DNA of 60,060 nucleotides, taken from assembly GCA_030531085.1 (NCBI GenBank), contig JAUNOM010000013.1, forward strand, positions 1-60,060. The letters are read 5' to 3'. This document shows, one piece after another, positions 13,026 to 42,799 of this stretch. Source of the stretch: Prevotellaceae bacterium (GTDB lineage: Bacteria > Bacteroidota > Bacteroidia > Bacteroidales > Bacteroidaceae). The notes under the pieces are model-generated. The model did not search any database and was not told the origin of the DNA. It saw only the letters and a program-made list of their open reading frames with translations. Every line of letters starts with the position of its first letter. Position 1 is the stretch's first letter. A program made the translations under genes and the position numbers.

Positions 13026-13241
13026 ACCGGGATATGTTTTATGTGCAGTGCAAGACTGCGGAAAGAGTGAGATAAGACAAGGAAACAAACATGGAGTTAA
13101 TGACTGCTTGTTGAACAAAGCGAAAAAAACGCTAATGGCACATTGGCGGAAAGCTGTCGTTAAGTCCACTGAATTGTTAGCGCAGGCGGTACTTGACATT
13201 CTCACCCGGCAGTAACTTTGCACAATAAAACGATGCCGTGT
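13026..13241 (-). promoter_or_regulatory. Fold-back module 1 (putative ssDNA promoter)
   Basis: The left arm 13026-13046 (ACCGGGATATGTTTTATGTG) pairs with the right arm 13220-13241 (GCACAATAAAACGATGCCGT) with few mismatches. The right arm is preceded by TAACTTTG (13213-13220), a Bacteroides -7 element, with TTGAC at 13193 as the -33 box. The stretch opposite the -7 is not complementary (bubble), and pairing resumes inside (GTGAGA and GACAAG on the left versus the RC of 13190-13206). In duplex DNA this promoter faces away from the gene at 12962; in the folded plus strand it faces it. Confidence 0.6.
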
Positions 13242-13470
13242 GGTGTGACGGTCGGCATAAGGGGGGCGTATTCTGATTGTATAATAGGAAATGCCATAAT
13301 ATCAAAAGACAGGAACCGCTAAAACAGCCCCAAGTCAAGAATAAAAGTGGATTCACGAATAGTAAAAGAGAGCATGGCTACGGCTATCGACGAGTTGCCG
13401 TAGTCACGCATAAAAGCCACCTGCTACAATTTCTATCGTAACAAGTGGCAGAATAAAGGAACCAAATAGG
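13242..13470. other. Non-coding gap right of module 1
   Basis: I see no convincing ORF. ATGCCG/CGGCAT arms bracket a short hairpin (13233-13258), and the rest is plain sequence before the stop of pcfJ. If the duplex promoter at 13213 is active it would transcribe into this gap. Confidence 0.4.
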
Positions 13471-14736
13471 CTATGCTGTCATACGCTTGCGGATTTGCCG
13501 TGCGTTTTTCTGTACAAGTCTGATGATGCGGTCGTGATACTCGGTGCTTTGGTTGCAAAGACCTCTTGACTGCAACACCTTGAATGTGTCAAGGCTCAAC
13601 TCAACGGTTTCGATGCGCCTGTTGCCTATTCGTGCGGAAAGTACCAATGATTGCGGTTTCAGATAATATTCACATTGTCCCACGCAATGGTGCAGTGCGT
13701 TGCCTTCCTGATAATACTCGTCCACGCTCTCCAATACGCTGATGACGATAAGTCCGTCAGTGAATGTAAGCCCGAAAAACCTGCCTTTCAACTCTTGGAA
13801 ACGCTTTTCGTTTTCCCTTGCCCTTTTCCGTTGCTCCTCACGCTTCTCCCTCTCTCGGATAGCCATTACACGCTCCTGATAGCGGTCGTGCTCGGTTGGC
13901 AAGTCTGAGGGACAGACATAATGGGCATTGTGAATGTCCTTGCCACACCTTTCAAGTGAACGGATATAATCCACCCAAAGCGAGATGTCGGAAATATGGT
14001 AGTCGTTGCGCAGGGCAATCTTGTACGTGTTCCAATACATATCCAAGTCTCTCTGATGTTGCAGAAAATAGTTCAAATCCGCTTTCCTGCCTGCCTTGAA
14101 CATCGTCTCAGCCCTGCTGTCAGTCAACAGGGCTTCAATAAGCCTTGTTGGTTCAAAACCTGCCAGTGAGCCTTTCAAGCCGTTACGCTTCAGTTTTGGG
14201 ATGACTGAATAATAAGGATAAACATAACAGTCGGAAATATGCCTGTAAACATGGTTGTCTCTCCGCAGTTCCAAGCGTCCGTCCATGACAAAAGAGTCCA
14301 TATAATATCCGCAAGAACGTTTCAATGCTGTCACCTCTTTCTTGCCGTTATCATCAATCCAATAGCGTGCTACTTCCATAGAATGGCTGTCGGCTTTTCT
14401 GCCCTTGTGGAAATTTGCGGTCAGAAGGAACACACGCTGTACCTGCAAGCTGTCTTGTGTGGTGAGGGTGGAAAAATATGCTTTCTCTCTGTATATTCTT
14501 CTGTTTGTGTCCTTTATCTCCAATCTTGCACCGCAATGAGGACAACGGCACGTTTTTTTGCTGCTCTCATTCCACTTGTGTCCGCAGTCCATGCACGTAG
14601 TACCTCCGCTTTTTGTCCGGAACGCATAATGGCTGACGCAGTGACGGAATGCCCATGTCTCCTGTTTCTCTGTCGGTGGCAGTAACCGCTCATTGGCGGC
14701 TACCACCTTATGCTGTAATCTTGTTTTTGCTTTCAT
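13471..14736 (-). CDS. pcfJ: PcfJ-like protein
   Basis: The 421-aa protein has an N-terminal zinc ribbon (CMDCGHKW then CRCPHCGA, residues ~49-70) and a C-terminal PcfJ signature near 345-400 (NALHHCVGQCEYYL, IETVELSLDTF, VLQSRGLCN). A charged helical region (REREKREEQRKRARENEKR) lies between. PcfJ proteins occur with PcfK in conjugative plasmids and ICEs; the biochemical role is not settled. The start codon overlaps the pcfK stop by one base (TAATG), so the two are coupled. Confidence 0.85.
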   Translation of the reverse strand: MKAKTRLQHKVVAANERLLPPTEKQETWAFRHCVSHYAFRTKSGGTTCMDCGHKWNESSKKTCRCPHCGARLEIKDTNRRIYREKAYFSTLTTQDSLQVQRVFLLTANFHKGRKADSHSMEVARYWIDDNGKKEVTALKRSCGYYMDSFVMDGRLELRRDNHVYRHISDCYVYPYYSVIPKLKRNGLKGSLAGFEPTRLIEALLTDSRAETMFKAGRKADLNYFLQHQRDLDMYWNTYKIALRNDYHISDISLWVDYIRSLERCGKDIHNAHYVCPSDLPTEHDRYQERVMAIREREKREEQRKRARENEKRFQELKGRFFGLTFTDGLIVISVLESVDEYYQEGNALHHCVGQCEYYLKPQSLVLSARIGNRRIETVELSLDTFKVLQSRGLCNQSTEYHDRIIRLVQKNARQIRKRMTA

Positions 14737-15173
14737 TATTCAAAGTCAAATAGTGATGGTTGTGATACTTCTTGTTTTACTGCTTTCGGTGTCGGCTTCG
14801 GTCTGCTGCTATGTTGTTGGATTTTACGCAGTTCCTCTGCCTGATATGCTTTCAGGGCTTTTTCTCTCGCTTCGGCTTTCTCCTGTTCGGATAGTTCCAC
14901 CCTGTGGTTGACAATTACTCCGCAGTTTATAGCCTTGCCGACTTCGATGTTGTCTTCATCATAGTAATGCGTGGCAAGGGAATAGACCTCGTCATCGGTC
15001 ATGCCGCAACCTCCCTCTTGGGCAATGGCTTTTGCTTGGTTGAGAATGAACGTAACACAATCGTTCAAATTCTTGTTCACTTTGGCATACGATACCGCAA
15101 AGAGTTCGTCAGTCTTGGCTCTCTCGTCCAGATAAGCCTTAATCGCCTGCTTGAAATGCTCTGTTCCTGTCAT
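14736..15173 (-). CDS. pcfK: PcfK-like protein
   Basis: The frame extends upstream but the ATG at 15173 (MTGTEHFKQAIKAYLDERAK) gives the normal PcfK N-terminus, and upstream sequence is the module leader. The 145-aa protein carries the family pattern (TDELFAVSYAKVNKNLNDCV, then FILNQAKAI). The C-terminus is a basic/Pro tail ending PSLFDFE. It lies immediately upstream of and coupled to pcfJ, as in other conjugative elements. Expression probably starts from module 2. Confidence 0.85.
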   Translation of the reverse strand: MTGTEHFKQAIKAYLDERAKTDELFAVSYAKVNKNLNDCVTFILNQAKAIAQEGGCGMTDDEVYSLATHYYDEDNIEVGKAINCGVIVNHRVELSEQEKAEAREKALKAYQAEELRKIQQHSSRPKPTPKAVKQEVSQPSLFDFE

Positions 15174-15245
15174 AATTGTTACTTTATTTGATGTTTGAAT
15201 GTGAAACTTTATTGTCTTCCCTCTTTTTGAAGCCTTTTGGCTCCG

Positions 15246-15475
15246 CTTGTCGAGAACTGATTTTTCGTGCATCAGAAGACTGCGTAACAGGGGCTATAAG
15301 ACAAGGAAACAGGCATGGGATTTAATGAAATACCACTAATGGACATTGGCTCCGCTCTCACTGTTTCGTCCATTCGTGGAAAGCTGTTGTTAAATCCGGC
15401 ACCTGTTAGCAGGGCGGTACTTGGCATTATCGCCCAGGCAGTAACTTTGCAAAGAAAAATAGGTGCCGACAAACG
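15246..15475 (-). promoter_or_regulatory. Fold-back module 2 (putative ssDNA promoter)
   Basis: The left arm 15246-15271 (TTGTCGAGAACTGATTTTTC...TGCA) pairs imperfectly with the right arm 15448-15475 (TGCAAAGAAAAATAGGTGCC...). The -7 TAACTTTG is at 15442-15449 and the -33 TTG at 15421. This module and module 1 are also direct-sequence relatives: both contain TAAGACAAGGAAACA, GAAAGCTGT and GCGGTACTTG in the same order, so they are diverged copies. It sits 73 bp before pcfK. Confidence 0.6.
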
Positions 15476-15610
15476 GTAAAATATGATTAAGAGCAGAGTG
15501 ATATATGCTAAAACAGTAGTGTTGTACACGAAATCGAAGGAAATTTAGTACATAAATGGCTTTTTTTGACTGAGAAGTATCTGTTATCAATATATTTTTT
15601 GTAATTTTGC

Positions 15611-15656: not shown

Positions 15657-16283
15657 ATGTGTGAGAGTATAAAATCAATAATATTCAAGCGTCTGGAGGA
15701 AAGTCCGCCACACTCGATATTCTTCTTAAACGATTTTGCAGAATTAGGATCCTTGGAAACCATAAGGAAGGTTTTTCTACAAGCTCGTCTGGCTGGCCTT
15801 GTCTCTCATTTGAGCCATGGAATTTATGTCAGACCCATGATTTCAAGGTTTGGCGAGGTGCCTCCTCCTTTGGAGACTGTTGCAAAGGAGATTGCCAAAA
15901 GGGATTATGTAAAGATTATGCCTACAGGCAGTACCGCAGCCAACTTACTGGGGCTGTCAACCCAAATACCCATGAACGTGTCTTATCTTACCACAGGTTC
16001 TTCACGGAAAATAAACATAGGCAATCGGTTCATACAATTCAAACACGCTGCCCCAAAAAATTTTGCTTATAAGGGAACCACCATACCCCTCATAGTGCAG
16101 GCATTGAGGGATTTGGGCGAAAAGAACATCAATGAAGAAACATTGTCCTCATTGGCTCTTTACATTGAAAATGCAAAGGACAAAGACTCGTTTGTCAGTG
16201 ATCTGATTTTAGCTCCGGTGTGGATTCAGTCAATTATAAAACCTTTAGTTACAGAGAAAAATGAAGCATTGGCAACAATATAA
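15657..16283 (+). CDS. abiEi: AbiEi-type antitoxin (DUF6088)
   Basis: The 208-aa protein has an N-terminal winged-helix region (residues ~10-70: FFLNDFAELGSLETIRKVFL, GLVSHLSHGIYVRP) and a C-terminal domain typical of AbiEi (VKIMPTGSTAANLLGLSTQI, VSYLTTGSSRKI). It should bind the palindrome at 15611 and repress the operon. The end overlaps the toxin gene by 23 nt, a hallmark of coupled type IV toxin-antitoxin pairs. AbiE gives phage defence and stabilises mobile elements. Confidence 0.85.
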   Translation: MCESIKSIIFKRLEESPPHSIFFLNDFAELGSLETIRKVFLQARLAGLVSHLSHGIYVRPMISRFGEVPPPLETVAKEIAKRDYVKIMPTGSTAANLLGLSTQIPMNVSYLTTGSSRKINIGNRFIQFKHAAPKNFAYKGTTIPLIVQALRDLGEKNINEETLSSLALYIENAKDKDSFVSDLILAPVWIQSIIKPLVTEKNEALATI

Positions 16284-17274
16284 CGAGACGGAACGACTTC
16301 AACTGCTTGACATAACAGCAGCAAGGACAGGTCTTCCGCGCCTCGCCGTGGAGAAGGACTGGTGGGTAACAATGGTATTGAAGGCATTATCGATGACCCA
16401 ATACTCATCGCTCATGTCATTCAAAGGCGGCACCAGCCTGTCAAAGGGATGGCAACTGATAGAGCGTTTCAGTGAGGATATTGACATTGCCTTGAAAAGA
16501 GAGGAGCGTTTCGCCATTGCAGGAACATCCAACAGCCAATTGGCAAAGGCCAGAAGAACTGCGCGACATTATATTGTCCGTGAGCTGCCGGATGAGTTGA
16601 AGGCTGCCCTGTCTTCAATGGGAGTGATGCAATTCACGGTTGAAGCAGAAACAGAAAGAATCAAAGACGGTGTCGCATACGAGATGAGGGCGGACACACA
16701 TCCTTCTGTGGTTTATGTCAACTACAGCAGCATTGTCCCGGAAACATCGGAATATCTGCAGTCCAGAGTAAAAATAGAAATCAGTTGCCTGTCGATGGAC
16801 GAGCCTGTGCAACAGAAAACATTACGTTCATTTATCTCTGAATCTGTACCGGAATCGGAAGATTTCGTGGTGGATTTCAAGACTGTTGTCCCGACAAGAA
16901 CTTTTTTGGAAAAGATATTCCTGCTTCATGAAGAGTTCCTGAAAGAGAAACCAAGAAGTTACAGAATGTCCCGGCACCTGTACGATTTGGAACGAATTAT
17001 GGATATGCCGTTTGGCATTGAGGCTTTGTCCAATAGGCAACTATATATGGAGATAGTGCAGCACAGGAATACGTTCAATCATATTCCAGGTGTTGACTAT
17101 GCCACACACAATCCTGAGACGATAAATTTCATTCCTCAGGAAAACATCATGCAGGATTGGAAAGATGATTATGAGAATATGCGTAAGCACTTCATCTATG
17201 GGCACAATACTTTACCCTACGACAAGTTGATTGATAAGATAGAAGAATTGCAGAACAGAATCCGAAGAATTTGA
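16261..17274 (+). CDS. abiEii: AbiEii nucleotidyltransferase toxin
   Basis: The 337-aa protein carries the nucleotidyltransferase signature near residues 55-80 (FKGGTSLSKGW ... RFSEDIDIAL), i.e. GGTSL-Kx(n)-SEDIDI with the two metal-binding Asp. It lacks membrane segments. Known AbiEii/MenT enzymes transfer nucleotides to tRNA and stop growth reversibly. Translation is coupled to the antitoxin. A strong terminator follows at 17293. Confidence 0.88.
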   Translation: MKHWQQYNETERLQLLDITAARTGLPRLAVEKDWWVTMVLKALSMTQYSSLMSFKGGTSLSKGWQLIERFSEDIDIALKREERFAIAGTSNSQLAKARRTARHYIVRELPDELKAALSSMGVMQFTVEAETERIKDGVAYEMRADTHPSVVYVNYSSIVPETSEYLQSRVKIEISCLSMDEPVQQKTLRSFISESVPESEDFVVDFKTVVPTRTFLEKIFLLHEEFLKEKPRSYRMSRHLYDLERIMDMPFGIEALSNRQLYMEIVQHRNTFNHIPGVDYATHNPETINFIPQENIMQDWKDDYENMRKHFIYGHNTLPYDKLIDKIEELQNRIRRI

Positions 17275-17292
17275 ACGGGAACAAGCTAATCA

Positions 17293-17330
17293 AGGAGGAC
17301 CTATCCGTCACGGACAAGTCCTCCTGTTTT
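17293..17330 (+). terminator. Rho-independent terminator of abiE operon
   Basis: AGGAGGAC (17293-17300) pairs perfectly with GTCCTCCT (17318-17325); an inner TCCGT/ACGGA stem extends it, and a T-run (GTTTTTATC) follows. It lies about 20 nt after the toxin stop. Confidence 0.85.
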
Positions 17331-17383
17331 TATCAATGAAAAAAAAGTTTTTAATGCTCTTGTCTGTTGCCTCTACGCATTCT

Positions 17384-18799: not shown

Positions 18800-18852
18800 A
18801 TTGTTCAATTTAATCTGGTGAATACTATAACAGGTGATATGGAAAGTGCCGT

Positions 18853-20304: not shown

Positions 20305-20513
20305 ATCCTTGTCTTTGTTATATGTACACATTTCCTCTGTCCCCAGCTTGCTGCTTGTTCGGACAGCCTCCCGATGGTCGGAGACCAAGAGGGGGATTAG
20401 GCTACCTGCCTCCCCTCATTTCCGGCCACCGGGCAAGCCCGATTGTTTTACAGCAATGGCAGTCGTGTGAGACACGGTGCCGGTGGAAAAGAAAAAGTAT
20501 TGTACGGTGGATA
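20305..20513. other. Probable oriT region
   Basis: This 209-bp gap directly upstream of the MobV gene contains a perfect inverted repeat CGGGC-AA-GCCCG (20430-20441), TGGTC-GGA-GACCA (20375-20387) and a short ATTG/CAAT pair after it. MobV origins lie just before the relaxase gene beside inverted repeats, so this is the best candidate. I do not recognise a published nick consensus, so the exact nick is unknown. Confidence 0.5.
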
Positions 20514-21398: not shown

Positions 21399-21478
21399 TT
21401 TGGGTAATCTGTTTGGTGAATACTATTTCTACTGCCGAGGTCCGTTGTACAACAGAACCGGCATGATACAGGTGATAT

Positions 21479-22352: not shown

Positions 22353-22464
22353 CGCTTTGTCAGGAGAATGTGGCAATCAATGATACGGCGGATATGGACA
22401 GCGTAATATAATATGGCTGTGATATAATATAAACGTCTTATACGCCTTATGATGGATGAACCTT

Positions 22465-29533: not shown

Positions 29534-29604
29534 AGTGAATGAATTCCCTCTGTGTTCGCTTAATAGTTTCTTTCCCTCTGTTTGCTGATTCTCAGCCTGT
29601 CCGA

Positions 29605-29753
29605 GGGATATTTTTTGCTTTGTCAGAATGATGGCGGTCAATAAGGCAAATTGACAGCAGGAAATACTCTCTGCCCTTCAGAGGAAGATTTCCTGCAAAG
29701 ACGGTTTGTCCGTTTGAAAAACCGCAGGCATTACCTTTGCAAAACAATATCCC
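29605..29753 (-). promoter_or_regulatory. Fold-back module 3 (putative ssDNA promoter)
   Basis: The left arm 29605-29618 (GGGATATTTTTTGC) pairs with the right arm 29739-29753 (GCAAAACAATATCCC). The -7 element TACCTTTG (29732-29739) is unpaired opposite TTTGTCAGAATGA. GCGGT then pairs again, and an inner perfect stem GCAGGAAAT (29657-29665)/ATTTCCTGC (29688-29696) caps the fold. The gene start is 122 bp away, with the leader peptide between. Confidence 0.65.
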
Positions 29754-30001
29754 CAAGGGCTGAGCTGACGGAGTGATACGTTTCTTGCAAGAGAAGGGGC
29801 GGGACGGTGTGGGGCAAAGCTGTATAACCGGAGACTTTCCAGACTAAAATGGCACAGAAACAATGTCTATATTAAGTAGAGGATTAGTAAAAGCTAAAAC
29901 TGGATATACTATTTACAATTCTGCTACAGATAGTATATGCCAACCATAGTAAAATCAGATTTAATACGGTTAGCACATACTACTTTCAGTCAATACGACT
30001 T

Positions 30002-30424
30002 TTAGAAGGGCAGGTCTTCGTCCTTGTCCTGCGGTGCGTCGGCAGGCGGTTCGGGAGTATTGCCTTCGGCTTTGACAGCCTTTCGTACCTGGGTTGCCGT
30101 ATTGTCAGCCGTTTCCTTTTTACCTGTGTTGACAAAGGCGATGGAGTCAGCAATGATACTGTGCTGGATATGGTTTTCTTCGTTGCGGTCAGTCCAGATG
30201 GAAGATGTCAGCGTACCCTCCACAAGCACCATGCGTCCCTTTGTGAGGTATTCAGCCAAACGGATGTGGTTCTCCTTGCTGCTCTTCACCCTTACCCATG
30301 TAGTAATGTTCCTGCCTTTGCTGTAATCGTCCACGGCGATGTCAACAGCCATGAATGTGCCGTGTGTTCCTGTGATGACGCGGCAATCCTTGCCGATGCG
30401 TCCGATAGTGTGAGTGTAAATCAT
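30002..30424 (-). CDS. ssb: Single-stranded DNA-binding protein (first copy)
   Basis: From ATG 30424 the ~140-aa protein opens IYTHTIGRIGKDCRV, has the OB-fold core (TTWVRVKSSKENHIRLAEYL, KGRMVLVEGTLTSS) and ends in the acidic SSB tip DEDLPF that docks partner proteins. A start four codons up uses TTG and is less likely. It is the third gene of an operon begun at 31269. Conjugative leading regions usually carry ssb. Confidence 0.88.
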   Translation of the reverse strand: MIYTHTIGRIGKDCRVITGTHGTFMAVDIAVDDYSKGRNITTWVRVKSSKENHIRLAEYLTKGRMVLVEGTLTSSIWTDRNEENHIQHSIIADSIAFVNTGKKETADNTATQVRKAVKAEGNTPEPPADAPQDKDEDLPF

Positions 30425-30474
30425 AATGTTATGCAATTTGTGGCAAGCTGGTTAGGCTTGCCGTTACCTTGTTC

Positions 30475-31338: not shown

Positions 31339-31403
31339 AGTGAGTAAACTCCCTCAGCACTCGCTAAATCGTTTCTTTCCCTCCTTTCGAGACCTTTCAG
31401 CCT

Positions 31404-31649
31404 GTGGAGGGATATTTTCTGCCCCAACAGCCGCCATAAAAGGCAAACAGACAAATTATGTGTGAGGAATACTCTTTTCCTTGGAAAAGGAAGATTGTTC
31501 ACAGTCGTCAGACCGCAAGCAGAAAGCTCGTGCCAACGAGAGCAGAAGCCAAGCTCGCTTGAATTATGCCGAGTGCAGCCGAGCTTGCGCGAAGCAGAAT
31601 TTGACGGTTGGCATAGAGCGGCTAACTTTGCAGGAAATATGCCTGCCAC
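31404..31649 (-). promoter_or_regulatory. Fold-back module 4 (putative ssDNA promoter; clearest example)
   Basis: The left arm 31404-31422 (GTGGAGGGATATTTTCTGC) pairs with the right arm 31630-31649 (GCAGGAAATATGCCTGCCAC). The -7 element TAACTTTG (31623-31630) faces CCCAAC, a mismatch bubble. AGCCGC (31429-31434) pairs with GCGGCT (31618-31623). The -33 TTTG (31600-31603, 19 nt from the -7) lies in AATTTGACGGTTGGC, paired with GCAAACAGACAAATT (31443-31457). An inner hairpin CTTTTCC-TT-GGAAAAG (31474-31489) lies near the left-hand side. Confidence 0.7.
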
Positions 31650-32346
31650 TGCGCTGACTGGAAGAAAACCGATAATTGCAATACAACAGAAGAAGCCATA
31701 TATTATATAAGGTGAACCGTAAGGATAAAAAAGGAATGGGCGGGCTGTGAAGCTGTCGCCGGTCTGATGTACCGGCATAAGGCGAGTGTGTTGACAGTAC
31801 GGGAAGCAAGCCATCGAAGCGTTAGCCTTGATAGCTTGTGGCATGGACTGGCAATTCTCTCGCGCCGGTGTCTTGGCACAATGTCATCTTAGGGCTAATA
31901 GCAACCTGTTGCCATCAGCCCTAAAATGTCTTTGTGACTACAGACCGTGAGACGTTTCGATAAGGCGTGGGGCGAAGCTGTACAAAACAAGACGGACGGT
32001 ATCACCGCATATAACAAGGGTGGAAACGGTAAAAGTTGGGCACGGAGACATTGATGAACTCGCTTGGCCCCGACAAGCATGTTCTGTCCTTGCCTTGATC
32101 CACAAGGATAAGTTGCAAGTAGCAGACTTGTATGCCACCTGCGATTTATCTTTGTGGACAAGAACCTTTACCGCCATATAACAGGAGATATTTGCAGTCA
32201 AAGAGGAAAAGAAAGATACAACAGTCTGGATAATACCATATAAGAGAACCGTGAGTAAACTGGGAATAGGCAAAAGGCAGCCCATGCCGGCTTTCCTTTG
32301 AAAGGCAGTCCCAGCATGGATTATTCCGTTCCGTTGTTACGATGTG
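31650..32346. other. Long non-coding stretch with hairpins
   Basis: There is no credible ORF over ~700 bp. It contains GCCGGT/ACCGGC around 31765-31782, a 7-bp TAGGGCT/AGCCCTA hairpin with inner CAAC/GTTG (31890-31923), CCACAAGGATAA paired with TTATCTTTGTGG (32100-32158), and a diverged copy (32191-32220) of the 22-bp repeat at 41717 and 42864. It may hold an RNA gene or the relics of a lost cassette. Confidence 0.4.
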
Positions 32347-33055: not shown

Positions 33056-33110
33056 AGTATAAACCGTTTTATGTGAAACTTTTTGTTTTCCCTGCTTTCG
33101 GCTTGATACT

Positions 33111-33284
33111 TGCCGTTCAGGGATTTTACGGATGCCCACACACGGTCATCAGAACAGCGTCATGCGACGGCTTTTCCTGCCTAATTACACTCCGCATGGA
33201 GGAAGAATTTACAGGAAATGCACTTTAAGCCGCCTGCATCATGCGGCGATGACAGACCTTTGCATCCGATAAATCCTGACGGCA
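33111..33284 (-). promoter_or_regulatory. Fold-back module 5 (putative ssDNA promoter)
   Basis: The left arm 33111-33135 (TGCCGTTCAGGGATTTTACG, GATGC) pairs with the right arm 33262-33284 (GCATCCGATAAATCCTGACG...). The unpaired segment holds GACCTTTG (33255-33262), a -7 element with one mismatch to TAnnTTTG. GTCATC (33145-33150) pairs with GATGAC (33248-33253) beyond the bubble. The gene begins 56 bp to the left. Confidence 0.6.
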
Positions 33285-33456
33285 GATACAGGCATTAAGA
33301 AAATTCAAACTACATGAGGGCAGTTAAGTAACTAAAAAGGCTAAATTGTGTATAAAAGAGAGAAATACATGAGAAAAATGAGTTTGTGCGCTTTATTTTG
33401 ATACTTTTCAAGAAAAGACTTGGCAGTTTGGGGTTTTATTGTTAATTTTGCACTCG

Positions 33457-33779: not shown

Positions 33780-36700
33780 TCATGCCACCTTTTCTGTGGC
33801 TTTAATTTCCGTTTCATGCTCCGGACTTGGTTCGGGCTGTTGCTCCGTCTTGTTCAAGTCCGCCTCAATCTTCCTTTGCAGTTCCTTGCATTCCAGTGTG
33901 AGCCTTACCAGCTCGTCCGCCTTGTTCCATTCTCTGCCCATAATTTCCTGCAATGTCGGCAACTCGCTTTCCAACTGTCCGATGCGGTTCTGCTGTTCTT
34001 TCAAGAGTACAGGCAACTTTTCAAGCGTTGCTTTTGGATATTGCGCGGACTCAACAAAGCCCAATGGCAATGCACCTGACACACCACAACGGTACTTCAA
34101 TCCGCTTGCTCCCTCCACAAAAAATGAATTATGGTCGAACAAGCCTGTGAGGTTGGTCTCGCTGTGCACCGAAAGGTTCAATCCCATGTAGCTGCCGATG
34201 GTCTCATATACACCGCTGCGGTAGGTCTTTGATATGCGGTGCAGCTCACGTCCTGTCTCCTCTGCCGTTGCCTGTTGCATATTCAACAACTGCGTCACGG
34301 CTTCACCGTTATATGAGCCGATATATTCCAAATCCTGCCTCATGCGCTCTGCCGTGCGCCTTGCTTTCTCTATCTCCTGCCTGTTTGCGGCAATCTTCCG
34401 CTCCGCCTTTATGCGGTTTTTCTTGAATATCGCCTGCTCCTTTTCCAATTGCATAATCTTGTTGTCAAGTTTCGCCTTGTTCAGCAGGTCGGTATTGCCG
34501 GAAAGGATAGCCACGAACTCGGCAAAGTTCATTCCGCTGTCCTCGTCCATGCTGTCCTCGTCAATACGGCGGACGGCTATCGTGCCGTTATTGATTTGGT
34601 TTATGAACATCTGTTTGTTCTTCAAAAGGTTGAACTTGTAGGCATCAAGCGTTTTCTCCGTACCGTAGATTACAACGTCAACCACATTGCCGCCCCACAG
34701 CTTCACGGTGTTGCCCTTTCTCACGGCTCTTCCGTTGCGCTGTTCCATGTCGGCAGGTCGCCAGGGTATCTCCAAATGATGCACCGCAACTGCACGTTTC
34801 TGTGCGTTCACCCCTGTGCCTAACATGGTGGTCGAGCCGAAAAGCACCCTTACCTTTCCATTGTTCATGTCCTCAAAGAGCCGCTTTCTCGCTCTTTCGG
34901 TCTTGGCGCACTGGATAAACTGAATTTCATCAGCCGGAATACCGAGCCGTACCAGCTTGTCCTTTATGTCGCTGTAAACATTCCACTCGTTGGGCTTGTA
35001 TGTTGACAGGTCGCTGAACACGAACTGTGTGCCACGGTTGGCATTGGAGCGCATATAATAGTCATAGATTGTGTCTGCACATACAGAAGCCTTGTTGTTG
35101 GCATCGTCATGGAACTTGTCGCCCAGCAAGCGCATATCCAGCGCCATCTTCCTTGCCACATTGGTGGCGATAAGCATTTTCGCCTTGTCGAGGTTTTCGG
35201 GTTCCTGTGTGTCAAGTCCCAAATCCTCCCATTGTCCGCTGTTGGCAAATGAGACAAGCCTTCCTATCATTTCTTCCTGCTCGATGGTCGGGGCATGTGA
35301 CAGAAAGCGCACGTTCTTCTCCGGCACGTCAAGGTTTATCATGTCGGCGGTTCTGTAATCTGTAATTTCACGCAGGAACATCGCCAGCTCCGGCACTTTG
35401 ATGTAGGTGCGGAAACGCTCTTTTCTCTTGATTGCTCCTGTCACGTTCAACTCGTAGTCTGCCGTCTTCTTCGTGAATATCGCCGCCCATGCGTCAAAGC
35501 AGCTTATCCGCTGTCTCAGCAGTTCCTTTGGACGCAGGTATTTGAACATCACGTAAAGCTCGGTCAGTGCGTTCACCACTACCGTACCCGACAGGAATGT
35601 TGCGCCAAGGTCTCTGCCGTTGCGGTTCTGAATGTCACGAATGGCAAACAGCATGTTCATCGCCCTCTGTGAGCCTCTTGTGTTCCCGATGCCTGCAACC
35701 CTCGTGTGCCGTGTCTGAAACATGAGGTTCTTAAAAAGATGACACTCGTCAATGAATATGTGGTCGATGCCCATTGAGTGAAAGTCCACGGTGTCGTCCT
35801 TGCGGTTCTCTATCTTCAAGCGCAGCTCGTCAAGTTTGGCTGTAAGGTTCTGCTTCCTCTGTTCAAGCCCCTTTTGCATCTTTCCGCTGCGGTAGCGCAT
35901 GGTGCTTTTCTCCAGCACTTCAAGGCTGCGCTCCACATCGTCAAGTTCTTCCGTGAATATCTCAATCATCGTCTCCTCCGACTGCGGAATCTTGGCGAAC
36001 TGGTCGTGTGTCATGATTATGCAGTCCCAGTTGTTGTTCTTTATCTTTGAGAATACCTCCTTGCGGTTGGCTGGTGTGAAGTCCTCCTTGCCCGGATATA
36101 GCACCTTTGCCATGGGATATGCCTTGCGGAATGTGTCGGCTATCTCATGCACATTGGCTTTCAACCCGATAATCATCGGCTTTTGCACAAGTCCGAGCCT
36201 TTTCATTTCGTATGCCGCCACACACATTATCATGGTCTTGCCTGTTCCAACCTCATGCCAGCAGATGCCGCCTCCGTTCTGCTTTATCATCCAGATAGCA
36301 TCTTTCTGTGACGGGTACAGGTCATTGTAGGGGAATTGCTCAAAGGACAGCCCGGGGAATGTCTGTGCAGAACCGTCATAGTGCGGACGGACATAGCAGT
36401 TGAAACGCTCGTTATATACTCTCACAAGCTCGTCACGCACCTCTATGGGCTGGCGGTCAAGCCATTCATTGAAGCGATTGCGGATTTCCTGTATCTTGGC
36501 GGCTGCCTCCTGTATGGCTTCTTCATCGGGTACACGCACCTTTTCTGTTCCACGGAAAATCTCTTTTGTGATTTCGGGCACGGTGTCCTGAAGGGCGAAC
36601 ACGAAGAGTTCTTCACCGTTGTAGTTGCGCACGGAATAGGTGTTGTATGCGATTGGGGAATATCCTTGCAGGCGTACAAGATAGGTGTCGTTCACGTCAA

Positions 36701-38780
36701 AGTACATCACGCTTGCCTCCACGTCAAAAAGTTCTGATGCGAAAGCGGCATAAAGCCGTGTGTCAATCCAACGCTCGCCCATGTTGATGTCAAGCTCCTC
36801 GTATGGCACTGTTTCGGGACTGACTTCCTCCAATGCCCTTAATGCCTCTTCCGTATATGCCTTTTCCTTGCCGTCCAAGTTTGCGGTGCAGGAAACAATC
36901 TCCTTGCTCTTGGCTATTACGTTCCCTGCAAGGAACATGCCTTTATGCTCCCATCTGCCGACAGCGGGGTTATAGAATATCTCGCCTTTGAGTTCTGCGG
37001 CTATATCGTCCTCGCTCTTGCCTGTGGACTGTGACATATAGGACATATTTACCATTCCGTAGTAGTTAAGGCTGCTCAGCAAGGCTTCCATGGGGGTCTG
37101 TACATTTGCCGTGGTCTCTTTCTGAAATGCGACAGGCTCACGCATGATGTCAGCCTTGAAGATGTCCTTGCCGACCTGCATTTCAATGGTGAACACCTCC
37201 ACACCGAGGCTGTCAAGCATGATAAACTCCCTGTTGTCGTTGTCGTGAAAATATCCCCACTTGGCTACGAAAGCGTCATACTCCCTGTTAAGCTGTTCCC
37301 TCAATGCTTCTTCTTCCCTCTGTTCTTCCCTTTCTGTGATTGAAAGTTCAAAATAGGTCTTGCGGATAGGGAAATAGTCTCTTGCCCTCTCAATGTTCAC
37401 CTTGCCGTCATCGACAGGTTGGAAGTCAACGGCAACGGTGGTGTAATGGCTTGATTTGCGGTATTGCAGTGTTCCGACCTGTCCCTCAAACATCACCAGA
37501 GCACCGCTTTTCATCCAGTCCTCCGTATTGTCCGTATAGGCACGTTTTCCTTTCCGTGCGGAAACATTCATGTCACAGTCCATGTCTCCGAACAGCGACA
37601 TCTGCATGGGCTGGTTGCCCTCGTTGGAAAATAAACTCTTTCTAAAATATCGCTCAAAGTCGCCCTGCAACATTCCACACAGGTACTTGAACATGGAAAC
37701 CTCACCGCTCTCCCACAGGTATTTGCGCACATATTTGCCGTACTGGTTCATGACGATACGGCTGCCTGTGGCAAGCGTGGTCTTTGGCATGGTGAAGAGT
37801 CTGTTTGTATATTCCGTGGTCTTTCCTGACATATCCACCATTTCCTTGCTGACTTGCAGGAAAGCCTGCTCACGTCCCGAAAGTGCGCTCTTATGTGTGT
37901 TCTTCTGAAAGACAAGCAGGTCGCTTCCCACCTCTATGCCGCTTGTCTGCATGAAAAGCGTGTCGGGCAGACGCAATGCGGTTATGAGATTGGCATGACG
38001 TACAAGATACTCACGCACGAACTTGTTGCCCGGTGTGTCGGCTACTCCCCTTGAAGTGACGAAAGCCAGCAAGCCGCCCTCGTTAAGCAGTTCCATGGAC
38101 TTTACAAAGAAATAGTTATGTATGGTCTTGGTCGCCTGTTCGTAGATGCCGCCCTTTTTCCAAAGCTCCGCATCGAACACACGGAAGTTGCCGAAAGGTA
38201 TATTGGACGCTACGACATCAAAACTGCGGTTCTCCGTGATAGTGCTGTCTATGGTCTCAAAACCTGCCGTATAGGTCTGCGCCTCGTCATGCAGGACGGA
38301 AAGGATAAGTCCTGTGAGGTGGTCTTTCTCGAAAGCGTGTGTTTGGGTGTCGGGCATGGCTACTGGCAGGAAACCGCCAATTCCTGCGCTCGGCTCTAAG
38401 AATGTGCGCATGGTAAAGCCGTTTTCTGCAAACACTTTCTGTATCTGCCGTGCCACTGCGTCAATGACAGACTGCGGTGTGTAGAAAGCGGTCAGCACTG
38501 ATGCCTTGATGCTTGATATTACCTGATGGCGCATCTTGTCCGTGAAGTATGGATATTCGTCTATCAGCCTTTGCAGCTTGCCGATAGGCTCTGCCATATC
38601 TCCTGTGATTGGCTTGTCCGTACCCATGTTAAGCACTTCCTTGATACCGCCAAAGCCTGAATACAAGGAAAGCGTCTCTTTCTCCTTGTCCGTGGCACGC
38701 CGCCCCTGTACCTTGACTTTCATCGCTGTCTCTATGGCTTCCACGTTTGCCACGAGTGATTTCTGTTTGTTGTAACTCAT
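33780..38780 (-). CDS. DarB-like N6-adenine methylase/helicase fusion
   Basis: The protein has 1666 aa. Residues ~115-260 are an adenine methyltransferase: motif I FLEPSAGIGGF near 130, motif IV VVASNIPFGNF near 195 (N-I-P-F in place of NPPF). Residues ~840-1380 are a superfamily-2 helicase: Walker A WHEVGTGKT near 845, DECH box (DHIFIDECHLFKN) near 1013, and motif V/VI MLGTGVNAQKRA...RPADMEQRNGRAVRKG near 1330-1360. The C-terminus is coiled coil. The architecture matches DarB of phage P1, which protects incoming DNA from type I restriction. It stands alone behind module 6 and overlaps leader peptide 3 (ATGA). Confidence 0.85.
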   Translation of the reverse strand: MSYNKQKSLVANVEAIETAMKVKVQGRRATDKEKETLSLYSGFGGIKEVLNMGTDKPITGDMAEPIGKLQRLIDEYPYFTDKMRHQVISSIKASVLTAFYTPQSVIDAVARQIQKVFAENGFTMRTFLEPSAGIGGFLPVAMPDTQTHAFEKDHLTGLILSVLHDEAQTYTAGFETIDSTITENRSFDVVASNIPFGNFRVFDAELWKKGGIYEQATKTIHNYFFVKSMELLNEGGLLAFVTSRGVADTPGNKFVREYLVRHANLITALRLPDTLFMQTSGIEVGSDLLVFQKNTHKSALSGREQAFLQVSKEMVDMSGKTTEYTNRLFTMPKTTLATGSRIVMNQYGKYVRKYLWESGEVSMFKYLCGMLQGDFERYFRKSLFSNEGNQPMQMSLFGDMDCDMNVSARKGKRAYTDNTEDWMKSGALVMFEGQVGTLQYRKSSHYTTVAVDFQPVDDGKVNIERARDYFPIRKTYFELSITEREEQREEEALREQLNREYDAFVAKWGYFHDNDNREFIMLDSLGVEVFTIEMQVGKDIFKADIMREPVAFQKETTANVQTPMEALLSSLNYYGMVNMSYMSQSTGKSEDDIAAELKGEIFYNPAVGRWEHKGMFLAGNVIAKSKEIVSCTANLDGKEKAYTEEALRALEEVSPETVPYEELDINMGERWIDTRLYAAFASELFDVEASVMYFDVNDTYLVRLQGYSPIAYNTYSVRNYNGEELFVFALQDTVPEITKEIFRGTEKVRVPDEEAIQEAAAKIQEIRNRFNEWLDRQPIEVRDELVRVYNERFNCYVRPHYDGSAQTFPGLSFEQFPYNDLYPSQKDAIWMIKQNGGGICWHEVGTGKTMIMCVAAYEMKRLGLVQKPMIIGLKANVHEIADTFRKAYPMAKVLYPGKEDFTPANRKEVFSKIKNNNWDCIIMTHDQFAKIPQSEETMIEIFTEELDDVERSLEVLEKSTMRYRSGKMQKGLEQRKQNLTAKLDELRLKIENRKDDTVDFHSMGIDHIFIDECHLFKNLMFQTRHTRVAGIGNTRGSQRAMNMLFAIRDIQNRNGRDLGATFLSGTVVVNALTELYVMFKYLRPKELLRQRISCFDAWAAIFTKKTADYELNVTGAIKRKERFRTYIKVPELAMFLREITDYRTADMINLDVPEKNVRFLSHAPTIEQEEMIGRLVSFANSGQWEDLGLDTQEPENLDKAKMLIATNVARKMALDMRLLGDKFHDDANNKASVCADTIYDYYMRSNANRGTQFVFSDLSTYKPNEWNVYSDIKDKLVRLGIPADEIQFIQCAKTERARKRLFEDMNNGKVRVLFGSTTMLGTGVNAQKRAVAVHHLEIPWRPADMEQRNGRAVRKGNTVKLWGGNVVDVVIYGTEKTLDAYKFNLLKNKQMFINQINNGTIAVRRIDEDSMDEDSGMNFAEFVAILSGNTDLLNKAKLDNKIMQLEKEQAIFKKNRIKAERKIAANRQEIEKARRTAERMRQDLEYIGSYNGEAVTQLLNMQQATAEETGRELHRISKTYRSGVYETIGSYMGLNLSVHSETNLTGLFDHNSFFVEGASGLKYRCGVSGALPLGFVESAQYPKATLEKLPVLLKEQQNRIGQLESELPTLQEIMGREWNKADELVRLTLECKELQRKIEADLNKTEQQPEPSPEHETEIKATEKVA

Positions 38781-38839: not shown

Positions 38840-38909
38840 TGTGAGTAAACTCTCTCTGCGCTCGCTAACTCGTTTCTTTCTTCCCTCATTTCGGTCTTTC
38901 TGTGACCGT

Positions 38910-39077
38910 GGGATTTATTTTTCTGCCTATCCAAAGGTGGCGGCGACAAACGGACAAGGCTGACGTGGAAAATACGCTCGACGGCGGAGAGGAAGATTTT
39001 CCGCAGTCACTCGCGGCATGGCCAGGCATTGGCAGGCTTGGAGGCGGCGGTTTACCTTTGCGGAAAAATAATATCCC
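38910..39077 (-). promoter_or_regulatory. Fold-back module 6 (putative ssDNA promoter)
   Basis: The left arm 38910-38923 (GGGATTTATTTTTC) pairs with the right arm 39063-39077 (GAAAAATAATATCCC), one bulge. The -7 TACCTTTG (39053-39060) is unpaired; the -33 TTG is at 39029, 21 nt away. Inner pairing GGAAAAT (38967-38973)/ATTTTCC (38996-39002), extended by TGAC/GTCA, mirrors module 3. The gene starts 130 bp left. Confidence 0.62.
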
Positions 39078-39246
39078 GGCGGTCATGCAGAATGAAAAAA
39101 CAGAGTATCGGCAGGTAAAAGGGTACAGGACTGTGCGGTATGACTGGAATGATGCAAGATAAAAGAGAAAAATATATTTGTAGGATAGGAAAACATGAAA
39201 GGGCTATAACAGCCGTACCACTTCGTGTGGAGTTTCAAAAAGAGTT

Positions 39247-39614: not shown

Positions 39615-40154
39615 CTATGCTGTTCCGTTTGATAAGACACATTTCCTGCATCTTGTTTTCCAACCGTATATCTCTGCCACGTATGGGTGGAGCGAGCGTG
39701 TCATCTTGCGGAACTGAACCTCATCGATTTCTCCGCTGTAGATTTTCTCTGTTATCCGCTCCGCCGCTTCCATGTCCTTTGCCACACGGTAAAGGATATA
39801 GTTCGTACCGTCATGGTGATATTCGACACCACGGATATTGTAAGTGTCGCCAAACCATTCTGCATCATGCGTGGAGCGCAGAATGTCCGCAATGTTTCTG
39901 CCGATGATTTTATATCCCTGTCTCCGACCGTACCACAAGCCGAGGTCTGCAAAGGCGATTATTACTCCATTGACTTCCTTGTTGAGATTGGTGCGCTCAT
40001 CATCAAGCCACAGATAGACTTCTTCTGCCCACTCTTCGTTTGTCACTTCATGCTTCGCATTACCAGAACATTCACGCTTGTTTTCTTGATACGCCTTTCG
40101 TGCGTCCTCGTCCAAAAGACTATCACAAGTCCAAATTAGCTGTTTCTTAACCAT
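39615..40154 (-). CDS. Hypothetical protein, first gene behind module 7
   Basis: The 179-aa protein is acidic in its first half (SLLDEDARKAYQENKREC, TNEEWAEEVYLWLDDERTN) and more basic at the end. A central hydrophobic strand region (GVIIAFADLGLWYGRRQGYK) suggests a mixed alpha/beta fold. There is no signal peptide and no known family. An anti-defence role is possible by position only. Confidence 0.6.
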   Translation of the reverse strand: MVKKQLIWTCDSLLDEDARKAYQENKRECSGNAKHEVTNEEWAEEVYLWLDDERTNLNKEVNGVIIAFADLGLWYGRRQGYKIIGRNIADILRSTHDAEWFGDTYNIRGVEYHHDGTNYILYRVAKDMEAAERITEKIYSGEIDEVQFRKMTRSLHPYVAEIYGWKTRCRKCVLSNGTA

Positions 40155-40200: not shown

Positions 40201-40398
40201 CCAACTTGCAGGGATTGTATTTACGTTGCGATGAAAAGACAGCAGAAGACAGAGGACATTCGGAAGGTTACGTTACAGAATATATCAAATACTCTTTTTC
40301 GCATGGAAAAGGAAGATTTTATGCTGTCTGTAATGAATACCGAGGTAATCCGTAAGCAGCTGTGTACCTTTGCAACTTAAATGCACTCCCGCAGTTGG
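40201..40398 (-). promoter_or_regulatory. Fold-back module 7 (putative ssDNA promoter)
   Basis: The left arm 40201-40229 (CCAACTTGCAGGGATTGTAT, TTACGTTGC) pairs with the right arm 40372-40398 (GCAACTTAAATGCACTCCCG, CAGTTGG) with about four mismatches or bulges, the longest outer stem of the set. The -7 TACCTTTG (40365-40372) faces GATGAAAAG, unpaired. ACAGC (40239-40243) pairs with GCTGT (40359-40363). The inner CTTTTTC/GGAAAAG hairpin resembles module 4. The gene is 47 bp away. Confidence 0.68.
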
Positions 40399-40552: not shown

Positions 40553-40942
40553 CTATTTCTTGCCTTTCTTGGTAGCCTTCTTGATCGGCTTTTCCGCTGG
40601 AGTCTCCTCCTCCTTCTCAGGTGTGGGATAAAACTTGGTCGCAACCATGATTATTCTGTTGTGGGACACTCCTTCCTTGTCTGTCCATTCCTCAGGCTTG
40701 AAGAAGCCCTCGACGGTGAGCAGCGCACCCTTGGTGAGTTTGTCGAAGGAGTCGGTGTTCTCGTTCTTGCGCCATGCCTCCATATTCATGAAAGCCGATA
40801 TGCGGTTGGTTTCCTCGCCGTTCTTTTCCTGACGGCCTACTGCCAGGGAGAAGCGTGCTACGCTGGCGTTTGTGAACTTACGGATTTCTGCATCCTTACC
40901 TACGAAACCTGAAACTGTGAAGTTGTTCTCAATCTTTTTCAT
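40553..40942 (-). CDS. ssb: Single-stranded DNA-binding protein (second copy)
   Basis: The 129-aa protein has the OB-fold pattern (NNFTVSGFVGKDAEIRKF, VARFSLAVGRQ, KGALLTVEGFFKPEEW) but ends in a Lys-rich tail (EKPIKKATKKGKK) instead of the acidic tip, so it should not recruit host replication partners like a standard SSB. It is a single-gene unit 26 bp from module 8. Together with the SSB at 30002 and the OB-fold protein at 9290 the element carries three ssDNA binders. Confidence 0.82.
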   Translation of the reverse strand: MKKIENNFTVSGFVGKDAEIRKFTNASVARFSLAVGRQEKNGEETNRISAFMNMEAWRKNENTDSFDKLTKGALLTVEGFFKPEEWTDKEGVSHNRIIMVATKFYPTPEKEEETPAEKPIKKATKKGKK

Positions 40943-40967
40943 TTTGAATTGAATTTAAAAGTGAAAC

Positions 40968-41180
40968 TTAATTTTTACATGCAATCAAAAGCAGGGATGT
41001 GGCACCATGTGGGAAGCACCATGAAAATCGTCCGCAATACTCTTTTTGTTGGTGGCGATGAACGGCAGAGAGGAAGAAAAAGGAAGATTACGCACTATTT
41101 TATTGGTCACAGCGACAGCGGCCACACAAGAAGGACATTTCCTTCGCAGCATCACGCTAAATTCGCATGGTAAAAATAAG
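40968..41180 (-). promoter_or_regulatory. Fold-back module 8 (putative ssDNA promoter)
   Basis: The left arm 40968-40983 (CTTAATTTTTACATGC) pairs with the right arm 41165-41180 (GCATGGTAAAAATAAG), with one A opposite G near the middle. The unpaired part holds TAAATTCG (41158-41165), a weakened -7 element. The interior contains AATACTCTTTTTG ... GGAAGATT, the spacer motif shared with modules 3, 4, 6 and 7. This is the weakest promoter match but the position relative to ssb is the same. Confidence 0.52.
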
Positions 41181-41775
41181 TGGCTTTGAAATTGCTCAAT
41201 TCAGAAAAATCGGGCATAAAACAATGGAACAAAGGTCGTAAGCGAGGAGGCTATCCGTTCGCAACGCCGATGCACAGTCTCGAATGTATGCCGTAAAGAA
41301 CGAAACGAGGAAATATAAGCAACAGCTGGATCGACTGAATAGGCGAGGCATGGGAACGATTATGCAGACCGGCAATTCATAAAGGAACTGCTCATACAAA
41401 GAGGTGTCAAACCAAGGAATGGCAGATATGGCAAGAATGGAGTGTACCACAGCAGTCATGGTACTGAAGCAAGTTTTACATCTGAAAAGGACGGAATACA
41501 GGCAAAGACAAATAAGGATTTCCAAGTGGCGAAATGGACTTTTTAATAACAAGGTGACGTGTCGCTTACAATGGTGAAGGAAACGAAGTGGCATATAGAA
41601 AGGAATGTATTTGTCATACAACAGGATTTGAGCAAGCTGGCAGATGCTCTGCTTGTGACATGGAATATCTGATAAAACAGCCATCACATCGTTGGAAGTG
41701 CGGATATAAAAGAGTCTTTGCAGTGAAAAGAAAAAAGAGCCTGCAAAACCATATTGTCCACAGACTCTCCTTTCA
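41181..41775. other. Non-coding or decayed stretch
   Basis: No strong gene is present. Two short plus-strand ORFs exist, 41284-41382 (MYAVKNETRKYKQQLDRLNR..., 32 aa, basic) and 41419-41577 (52 aa, basic); neither has a convincing ribosome site. A minus-strand frame (41196-41783) lacks protein-like composition. The stretch may be a decayed cassette. Confidence 0.4.
41717..41738. repeat. 22-bp direct repeat, copy 1
   Basis: The 22 bp from 41717, TTTGCAGTGAAAAGAAAAAA plus GA, recur exactly at 42864-42885, with a diverged copy at 32191-32220. The two exact copies bracket the operon 41776-42553 together with its module 9. Confidence 0.75.
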
Positions 41776-41952
41776 TTATTCACAGATAACTATGTCATCT
41801 TTATACTCTGTAACTTCCTTGCCGTTGGTAAGTTGGATAATGACCTCACTGCCCAAGTCTTCAACTATTGTTCCCTCTGTCTGTCCCTTTCGTGGGTAAA
41901 GCAGGGTGCAGAAACAACCGACAATGCCTTCCAGCTGTTCAAAGTCTATCAT
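41776..41952 (-). CDS. Small hypothetical protein
   Basis: I chose the ATG at 41952, preceded by GGAGGAA, giving a 58-aa protein (MIDFEQLEGIVGCFCTLLYP ... VIIQLTNGKEVTEYKDDIVI). A longer frame to 42030 would overlap the upstream gene. It is small, acidic and probably of beta structure, with no known family. It is the second gene behind module 9. Confidence 0.55.
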   Translation of the reverse strand: MIDFEQLEGIVGCFCTLLYPRKGQTEGTIVEDLGSEVIIQLTNGKEVTEYKDDIVICE

Positions 41953-41968
41953 AGCCAGTTCCTCCCTG

Positions 41969-42553
41969 TCAGCCAAAAGTGATTGGATTGATGCAGAAAC
42001 CTGTGTCTTCTGTCTCATACTCATAGTCATTGATGAGGTCCATCATTTCTTGTTCGGTCTTTTCGTCCAATGAAACGCCTGTTTTCTCACACCATTTATT
42101 GACGGCATCGCCAATGGTGGGATATGCACCCTCGCAATCCTCAAAAATGTCTCCGTAGGTAGTGACGTAACACTCTTCGGGGAAGAAGTCGTTTTCGTCA
42201 TGGGTGTAGAAAATGCCGCAACCTGGCTCAACTTCTCGCCAGCTGATTGACAACTCGTAGCCAAGTGCCTTATTCACTTCGTCAAATAACATATCGCAGG
42301 AAGACCATGCACTTTCTGTGTCAAAGGACAAGAGGGCATAATCGTCTTTCTCGTTCTCCTCATATTCTGCCCAATAGATGTGTCCTCTCACCGAGATGCC
42401 TTTCTTCTCGTAGTCGATACCATAGTGTTCTGCCAAGAGATGCAGATACACGTCCTTACTGTTCACCTCCAAATCTTGAAGTGTCTTCCAGAGGTCGGCT
42501 ACCGCTTTGCGTGAGCCTGTTACCTTGTGTTGGGTTATTGCAATGTTAGCCAT
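41969..42553 (-). CDS. Acidic accessory protein (Api92/DUF1281-like?)
   Basis: The 194-aa protein is very acidic, especially at the C-terminus (EKTEQEMMDLINDYEYETED). The stretch ISWREVEPGCGIFYTHDEND resembles the ferredoxin-like Api92/DUF1281 family found on plasmids, and the acidity recalls DNA-mimic anti-restriction proteins such as ArdA. Neither assignment is firm. It is the first gene behind module 9, in a cassette flanked by 22-bp repeats. Confidence 0.55.
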   Translation of the reverse strand: MANIAITQHKVTGSRKAVADLWKTLQDLEVNSKDVYLHLLAEHYGIDYEKKGISVRGHIYWAEYEENEKDDYALLSFDTESAWSSCDMLFDEVNKALGYELSISWREVEPGCGIFYTHDENDFFPEECYVTTYGDIFEDCEGAYPTIGDAVNKWCEKTGVSLDEKTEQEMMDLINDYEYETEDTGFCINPITFG

Positions 42554-42587
42554 AAGATAAATTTTTTATTTTCTTCCCTCATGTAGA

Positions 42588-42799
42588 GCCAACTACCGTC
42601 GGGATTGATTAAAGAATTATGTTGCCTCAAAAGGTGTTATGGCTCATCAAGGCAAGGTTTTGCCGTCAAATACTACCTCTGGCACAATCAGAGTGTGGAG
42701 ATTTTACGGGCAAACCGCAGGCACTGACCTTGCAGGATGAATGCCATCACAGGTACCTTTGCAACACAATTCTTATCAAAGCCCGATCGATGTGTTGGC
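42588..42799 (-). promoter_or_regulatory. Fold-back module 9 (putative ssDNA promoter)
   Basis: The left arm 42588-42625 (GCCAAC, then TCGGGATTGATTAAAGAATT, then TGTTGC) pairs with the right arm 42761-42799 (GCAACACAATTCTTATCAAA ... GTTGGC) over most of its length. The -7 TACCTTTG (42754-42761) faces CTCAAAAGG, unpaired; the -33 TTG is at 42730, 21 nt away. TGTTATGGC (42635-42643) pairs with GCCATCACA (42743-42751). The gene begins 35 bp left. Confidence 0.68.

Follow-up and report, generated by a model that had tools for sequence, protein, structure and literature searches.

Plus-strand foldback modules before minus-strand operons of a Prevotellaceae mobile element as probable single-stranded-DNA promoters

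The first 60,060 nucleotides of contig JAUNOM010000013.1 of a Prevotellaceae bacterium (assembly GCA_030531085.1), the whole stretch analysed here and called the window, contain nine long foldbacks of the plus strand, M1 to M9. The window is the start of the contig that we call C11, in a draft genome of 2.37 Mb. These modules are quite likely single-stranded-DNA (ssDNA) promoters, each serving the minus-strand operon on its left, with a Frpo/ssi-like way of working and a Bacteroidota promoter. A preliminary description of this DNA had located nine modules with this fold and had proposed this function; folding with DNA parameters and shuffled controls confirmed the modules, and the shuffles, the minus-strand control, an Infernal search and covariation were all favourable to the function. 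During conjugation the plus strand would enter the recipient as the T-strand (the transferred strand), and in each module the right arm, carrying a -33 (TTG) and a -7 (TAnnTTTG), would pair with the left arm. These two motifs follow the Bacteroides -7/-33 consensus. The folded arms would form a local duplex with the promoter directed into the gene, while mismatches at or next to the -7, or a bulge there, would leave the left arm without an intact -7, so that duplex DNA would offer no consensus promoter toward the gene. RNA polymerase on the fold would transcribe the left arm and go on into the single-stranded gene, SSB (the single-stranded-DNA-binding protein), PcfK, a methylase and similar products would be made ahead of the second strand, and second-strand synthesis would turn the promoter off. 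We infer that transcription from ssDNA takes place at these modules and that the polymerase initiates at the fold, at the time given by this scheme.

Folding with DNA thermodynamic parameters (37 C, without SSB) gave long plus-strand foldbacks for all nine modules, with the promoter near the base of the right arm. The z-scores against dinucleotide shuffles ranged from -2.5 (M8) to -7.0 (M9), and a fold as stable was reached in 0 of 200 shuffles for eight modules and in 1 of 200 for M8. The minus strand folds as well, but less stably in eight of the nine modules. Both strands of the window (23,880 positions) were scanned for foldbacks. Among the 29 plus-strand TANNTTTG sites, the seven that belong to modules were the seven best foldbacks, from -26.4 to -38.6 kcal/mol, the next one reaching -20.2 kcal/mol; the 18 minus-strand sites, none of them among the modules, gave -23.8 kcal/mol at best. 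Window foldbacks without a -7 can be equally strong, and the strongest of all, at 57055, has none; the signal is therefore the foldback linked with a -7. Ten other contigs of the same genome (194,883 bases; one of them, C1, carries a weak relaxase match) hold 148 TANNTTTG sites, of which none reached -26 kcal/mol and one reached -24.5, in a scan with slightly longer arms under which the window modules gave -27.0 to -41.7. The best partner of each right arm was its own left arm, ranking first of nine in all nine modules, with M3 tied with one foreign arm and M5 tested 3 bases off its -7; mean arm pairing was -32.3 kcal/mol for cognate versus -16.8 kcal/mol for non-cognate arms.

The common architecture was examined in 75 sites at -25 kcal/mol or below, taken from the window, from pcfK loci of relatives and from three circular elements, namely p214_V8GG (CTn214) and those of B. 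thetaiotaomicron BFG-510 and B. fragilis BFG-481. These were reduced to 49 unique sites, which include about six likely non-members (L038, L091, L094) that were retained in the left-arm and strand-stability counts. The predominant -7 among them is TACCTTTGC. The -7 had been described as lying in a bubble between paired flanks; a bubble does touch its TA edge in all seven modules with an exact TANNTTTG, with TTTGC and the bases after it mostly paired, and the same holds for most of the 49 unique sites. Some related families (A3) differ in that TACCTTT is itself paired, with a small bulge after it. Pairing of the -33, at first noted for M4, turned out not to be limited to it, for helix 1 of the covariance alignment pairs the CCTTG (-33) element in 88.6% of cells. 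An opposite-strand TANNTTTG on the left arm was found in 0 of the 49 unique sites, as would be expected of a promoter that has to work toward the gene in the folded strand and not in duplex DNA.

The modules had been thought to differ in sequence and to share one plan. The plan stands, but the sequences are not unrelated: an apical hairpin of the form AATAC(T/G)C...GGAAGATT occurs in M3, M4, M6, M7 and M8, with a variant in M9; M1, M2 and M5 gave no match to this pattern. The hairpin consists of AATAC, a variable stem and GGAAGATT, and is common to modules of different families. It was present in 26 of 42 unique sites outside the window that had been picked by foldback energy alone, versus 0 of 148 control sites. 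That the hairpin recurs although the arms drift speaks for a partner.

Covariation, seen in most alignments, counts in favour of the ssDNA-promoter reading. With RNAalifold, pairs with changes on both sides numbered 8 of 68 in the M1 family (A1), 4 of 46 in the M2 family (A2) and 19 of 55 in the family of integrative-and-conjugative-element pcfK operons (A3); with DNA parameters and Watson-Crick pairs only, they numbered 8 of 64 in A1 and 15 of 44 in A3. The alignment A4 combined 28 diverse modules from 55 candidates and contained no window sequence, but did contain relatives of M3 and M4 from the stretch L070. Double compensatory changes were seen in 17 of its 20 pairs, paired cells amounted to 88.0% versus 68.7% after shuffling, and the covariation score was 0.494 versus 0.182 in shuffled alignments (0 of 500 as high) and at most 0.17 in slid ones. 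Because the members of A4 were picked for foldback and hairpin motif, the helix 1 pairing and the motif letters partly reflect that choice. It did not extend to the stem that joins motif and arms (columns 65-72 with 122-129), and there double changes were seen in 7 of 7 pairs.

A covariance model, R1, was built from A4 and used in searches, with E-values that are rough by the tool's own warning. R1 recovered eight of the nine window modules, all on the plus strand, and found nothing at E<=1 in the 12 longer of 14 control stretches. In the own genome, where 150 of 342 first-look candidates were scored, the sole three matches at E<=0.001 sit in this element. The circular elements were matched at 3.9e-17 (L092), at 6.7e-15 in CP103159 (a training sequence; others there 0.0027) and weakly, at 0.006-0.13, in NZ_CP103120. 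At E<=1e-4, R1 had matches in 21 of the 149 order-level genomes and in 6 of the 148 in a phylum sample, in a survey with strict filters and 19 candidates scored per genome, in which the own genome is counted in both samples. Of five stretches around phylum-sample matches, three loci had four foldbacks at <=-24 with the hairpin and two loci had none. One genome (G845) had 38 R1 matches, many in same-strand clusters, and the module class can therefore be very abundant in a genome. A simpler pattern, the apical hairpin with a -7 and no required arm pairing, was found in 45 of 301 family genomes with 1 control match. In a phylum sample of 395 genomes it was found in 13, against 5 control matches of the backwards pattern, so that many of these are by chance. 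The 46 pattern sites at 44 loci (1 at an edge, 45 scored) fell into 24 at <=-26, 1 at -21.2 and 20 between -8 and -18 kcal/mol; five of the 24 strong ones are the window modules M3, M6 and M7 again and some others are near-duplicates, and nearly all of the remaining, weakly folding sites look like chance.

Both energy and gene orientation bear on the question of which strand folds. Among modules at <=-28 kcal/mol, the strand carrying the -7 was more stable by 5.4 kcal/mol (35 of 39), whereas for other window foldbacks at <=-28 the difference was 0.5 kcal/mol (44 of 82; modules versus others p 1.5e-8). The -7 strand is thus favoured beyond selection bias, and the selected fold is that of the window's plus strand. 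A count of G.T versus A.C mismatches (26 vs 15 columns, p 0.12), made with a folding program that allows G.T and is thereby biased towards it, was suggestive at most and was superseded by this energy test. Two further predictions of the ssDNA-promoter reading held, and one of them concerns the relaxase. In 14 genomes with 146 R1 matches (145 used), 39 of 44 pairs of a relaxase gene and its nearest module within 30 kb had the two on opposite strands (p 1.4e-7), a comparison whose pairs from related elements are not independent data and may include relaxases of other elements. Other cut-offs gave 10 of 12 pairs at 10 kb, 29 of 33 at 20 kb and 39 of 46 at 40 kb, and neighbouring modules shared a strand in 45 of 47 cases. 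The relaxase gene is typically the last to enter the recipient, according to PMC11541004; if so, the folded strand would be the T-strand, and in this element the window's plus strand would be the one transferred. The three circular elements have minus-strand relaxase genes and divergent plus-strand tra genes, and beyond the tra genes stand minus-strand operons preceded by plus-strand foldbacks. The consensus nic motif gave one weak fitting match in CTn214, where it lies between mobA and parA on the plus strand; two other elements had no match that fits.

The same orientation was seen in 41 pcfK loci from named genomes, some of them near-copies of each other, with pcfK set to the plus strand. 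Their hosts include Prevotella, Bacteroides, Porphyromonas, Parabacteroides, Dysgonomonas and Paludibacter. A foldback below -24.5 kcal/mol at a TANNTTTG site was present in 31 of the 41 loci, and 43 of 44 strong foldbacks lay on the strand opposite pcfK, versus a split of 434 to 262 for all TANNTTTG sites. When only the region directly upstream of pcfK was considered, 2 of 39 loci had a strong foldback, presumably because most relatives have another gene ahead of pcfK in the operon; this count was superseded by the scan of whole loci.

The second prediction, that establishment and anti-restriction genes such as those for SSB, ArdA and PcfK stand behind the modules, was borne out as well. Behind the window modules are two SSB genes, pcfK and an N6-methylase gene. 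The genes behind 40 of the 146 R1 modules, taken as the longest open reading frame (ORF) near each, included ArdA (5), DUF4121 (3), YpsA (3), N6-methylase (2) and ParB (1), and PADLOC matches among genes behind modules were chiefly methyltransferases and ShosT.

Several observations weigh against the ssDNA-promoter reading. By R1 alone M1 (E 0.41) and M2 (E 0.55), both without the standard hairpin, are near chance, with a minus-strand match at E 0.93; M8 combines a weak fold with no match to the model. The -7 deviates in two of the nine modules (M5 and M8), and the operons of M5 and M9 also have an ordinary minus-strand TANNTTTG to the right of the module, at 33495 and 42810, while between the gene start and 300 bp past the module's -7 none was found for the other seven. 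The M2 family had 0 of 26 double-change pairs with DNA parameters, and 10 of the 41 pcfK loci yielded no strong foldback. Five of the 44 relaxase-module pairs disagree with the expected strand. In the three circular elements, foldbacks below -24.5 kcal/mol were 9 on the expected (plus) strand and 4 on the minus strand; two of the minus ones sit at a capsule locus, a third precedes mobA and the fourth a regulator gene. Seen from the presumed origin of transfer (oriT), the operons come after the tra genes, and 23 of the 29 opposite-strand pairs on that side (30 kb limit) are more than 10 kb away, an arrangement unlike that of F. Finally, the oriT and the relaxase of the window's own element are off the contig.

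Among other explanations, the one that fares best is that the modules are mainly single-strand origins, providing polymerase or primase primers for the second strand with early expression as a by-product. We regard this as unlikely. Frpo/ssi elements also prime DNA synthesis in vitro (PMC7690428), and the apical hairpin is recurrent; yet nine modules, every one of them in front of a minus-strand operon, are more than the one or two origins needed, the -7 and -33 are kept, and an opposite-strand ORF lies behind 40 of 40 modules examined (a count without control). A role as second-strand primer is compatible with the T-strand promoter account, and the two are not separable from the present analysis. 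Less probable still is a structure acting in RNA, either as the 5' leader of the minus-strand operon or as antisense plus-strand RNA. Covariation alone cannot distinguish DNA from RNA and the minus strand is able to fold as well, but the preference for the plus strand exceeds selection bias and counts against a minus-strand leader, whereas the transcript of the right-arm promoter in duplex DNA would begin within the right arm and would not include the module. An Rfam search of the modules gave no family at gathering score and a single unrelated weak match at E<=5. Bacteroides capsule promoters invert between inverted repeats, and the modules could in principle be phase-variable promoters of this kind caught in the off position, in which the duplex promoter likewise faces away from the gene. 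We consider this very improbable: the arms vary from module to module and so offer no common recombination site, the -7 lies within an arm, and 43 of the 44 strong foldbacks keep one orientation to pcfK. The foldbacks before the plasmid capsule locus at L094:11205-11244, upstream of UpxY, are a contrasting case and look like a true invertible promoter. That the modules are chance inverted repeats beside ordinary plus-strand promoters, as strong window foldbacks without a -7 might suggest, is hardly credible in view of the covariation, the shuffles, the own-arm pairing, the -7 scans of the window and the other contigs, and the R1 search.

The modules are placed along the window as follows. From 0 to 11.7 kb the genes are chiefly on the plus strand and include an M23 peptidase and ArdC-type proteins, and from 11.9 to 42.6 kb follow minus-strand operons with PcfJ, PcfK, a YpsA-SLOG protein, two SSBs, LPD28 and a 1666-aa N6-methylase/helicase, interrupted at about 15.6-28.2 kb by a block of other genes. 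All nine modules are plus-strand foldbacks; seven contain an exact plus-strand TANNTTTG, and M5 and M8 have one mismatch each. M1 (13010..13257; -7 TAACTTTG at 13213-13220; z -5.3; R1 E 0.41) stands before the minus-strand operon starting at 12962 and has homologues at 8 other loci (A1). M2 (15243..15477; TAACTTTG at 15442-15449; z -4.5; R1 E 0.55) precedes the pcfK-pcfJ operon (13471..15272, minus strand; Pfam PF14284 and PF14058). PcfK relatives are located in Bacteroidales conjugative elements, and one of them, at 22551-22967 of CP126057, is annotated as a Cas9 inhibitor of the AcrIIA9 family; the pcfK gene behind M2 may therefore be an anti-CRISPR. The interrupting block between M2 and M3 (15657-28221), with DUF6088, an OmpA-like protein, a Mob_Pre relaxase, a resolvase and a zinc alcohol dehydrogenase, is probably an inserted mobilizable element. 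In another insert, within CTn214, an R1 match (L091:38326-38494, E 2.7e-9) lies on the strand opposite to the host element and adjoins a putative abortive-infection gene and the mobilization genes of the insert.

To the right of the block, M3 (29588..29769; TACCTTTG at 29732-29739; apical hairpin from 29663; z -4.4; R1 E 4.6e-10) stands before a 188-aa gene and the YpsA-SLOG gene. M4 (31393..31662; TAACTTTG at 31623-31630; z -4.3; R1 core 31461-31503, E 0.001) stands before the operon starting at 31299, which includes an SSB gene (30002..30436, minus strand; PF00436). M5 (33101..33293; -7-like GACCTTTG at 33255-33262; z -5.3; R1 E 0.0021), before the gene 32654-33055 and the LPD28 gene, is conserved in the stretch L210. 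Behind M6 (38900..39090; TACCTTTG at 39053-39060; apical hairpin from 38971; z -4.1; R1 E 2.2e-14) is the N6-methylase/helicase gene (33780..38780, minus strand), and M7 (40201..40398; TACCTTTG at 40365-40372; apical hairpin from 40288; z -5.0; R1 E 0.0045) stands before the gene 39615-40154. The weakest module, M8 (40952..41195; -7-like TAAATTCG at 41158-41165; z -2.5; no R1 match), precedes the other SSB gene (40553..40942, minus strand; PF00436) and is 97% identical in L210. M9 (42597..42789; TACCTTTG at 42754-42761; z -7.0; R1 E 1e-11) stands before the gene 41969-42553. In eight of the nine operons (not that of M8) the stretch from the gene start to the left arm has, no more than 120 bases from the start codon, a plus-strand TTCCCT (AGGGAA in the mRNA), perhaps a translation signal common to the operons. 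Immediately right of M9, at 42918-43090, a palindromic stretch (ctttagttta...taaagtaaact) in two near-identical copies is possibly a terminator or a recombination site near the end of the minus-strand region, and farther right, at 44181-48707, lie genes for a GH127 beta-L-arabinofuranosidase and an alpha-L-arabinofuranosidase.

The likeness to Frpo/ssi elements that had been proposed holds for anatomy and context, not for sequence. According to PMC9849209 and PMC11541004, Frpo1 and Frpo2 of F and ssi/Frpo of ColIb-P9 are also non-coding regions before leading-region genes, in which a stem-loop of one strand rebuilds a promoter into the gene, and they also precede ssb and anti-restriction genes. 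PMC9849209 also reports that ardA and ssb of ColIb-P9 are expressed early and that early ssb expression of F requires Frpo2; the F region before ssb, the site of Frpo2, folded to a similar plan by our method. Unlike these elements, the modules have the Bacteroidota -33/-7 instead of sigma-70 boxes, the recurrent AATAC...GGAAGATT apical hairpin with widely varying arms, and many copies per element, placed beyond the tra genes. R1 found nothing at E<=1 in a stretch of plasmid F (L097), a comparison made by covariance model only, with known Frpo sequences not directly aligned. The modules would work like Frpo, and membership of the Frpo family, for which the sequence test failed, is not claimed. 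The Frpo-like candidates of Samuel et al. 2024 (PMC11541004) are likewise promoters in T-strand anti-defence islands, but they were found by BLAST to known Frpo and by a sigma-70 consensus in four islands, an approach that would probably miss the present modules; 'Bacteroid' occurs 0 times in the main text of that paper. Bacteroides invertible promoters also stand beside inverted repeats, and differ from the modules, which have no common repeat, carry the -7 within an arm and showed no flipped form, with sequence reads not consulted. A description of ssDNA promoters in Bacteroidota was not found in searches of open-licence literature, which does not prove that none exists. It is conceivable, though we would not bet on it, that the modules form a Bacteroidota class of their own, unrelated in sequence to Frpo, whose apical hairpin is recognised by a dedicated factor (the element's SSB, PcfK/PcfJ or a primase) and of which up to dozens per genome run a gene programme specific to the T-strand and may also prime the second strand.

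In the papers considered here, ssDNA promoters are treated in enterobacterial plasmids and sought by sigma-70 rules or BLAST. A structurally conserved family that is unrelated in sequence and suited to a different sigma factor would suggest that early T-strand expression arose more than once or diverged beyond recognition. If the reading is true, the modules would be a DNA-level marker for the early-entry genes of gut conjugative elements, and the uncharacterised genes behind them would be anti-defence candidates. The modules probably allow the recipient to express genes for defence and survival from the incoming DNA before its second strand is made, and similar structures are present in many related mobile elements.

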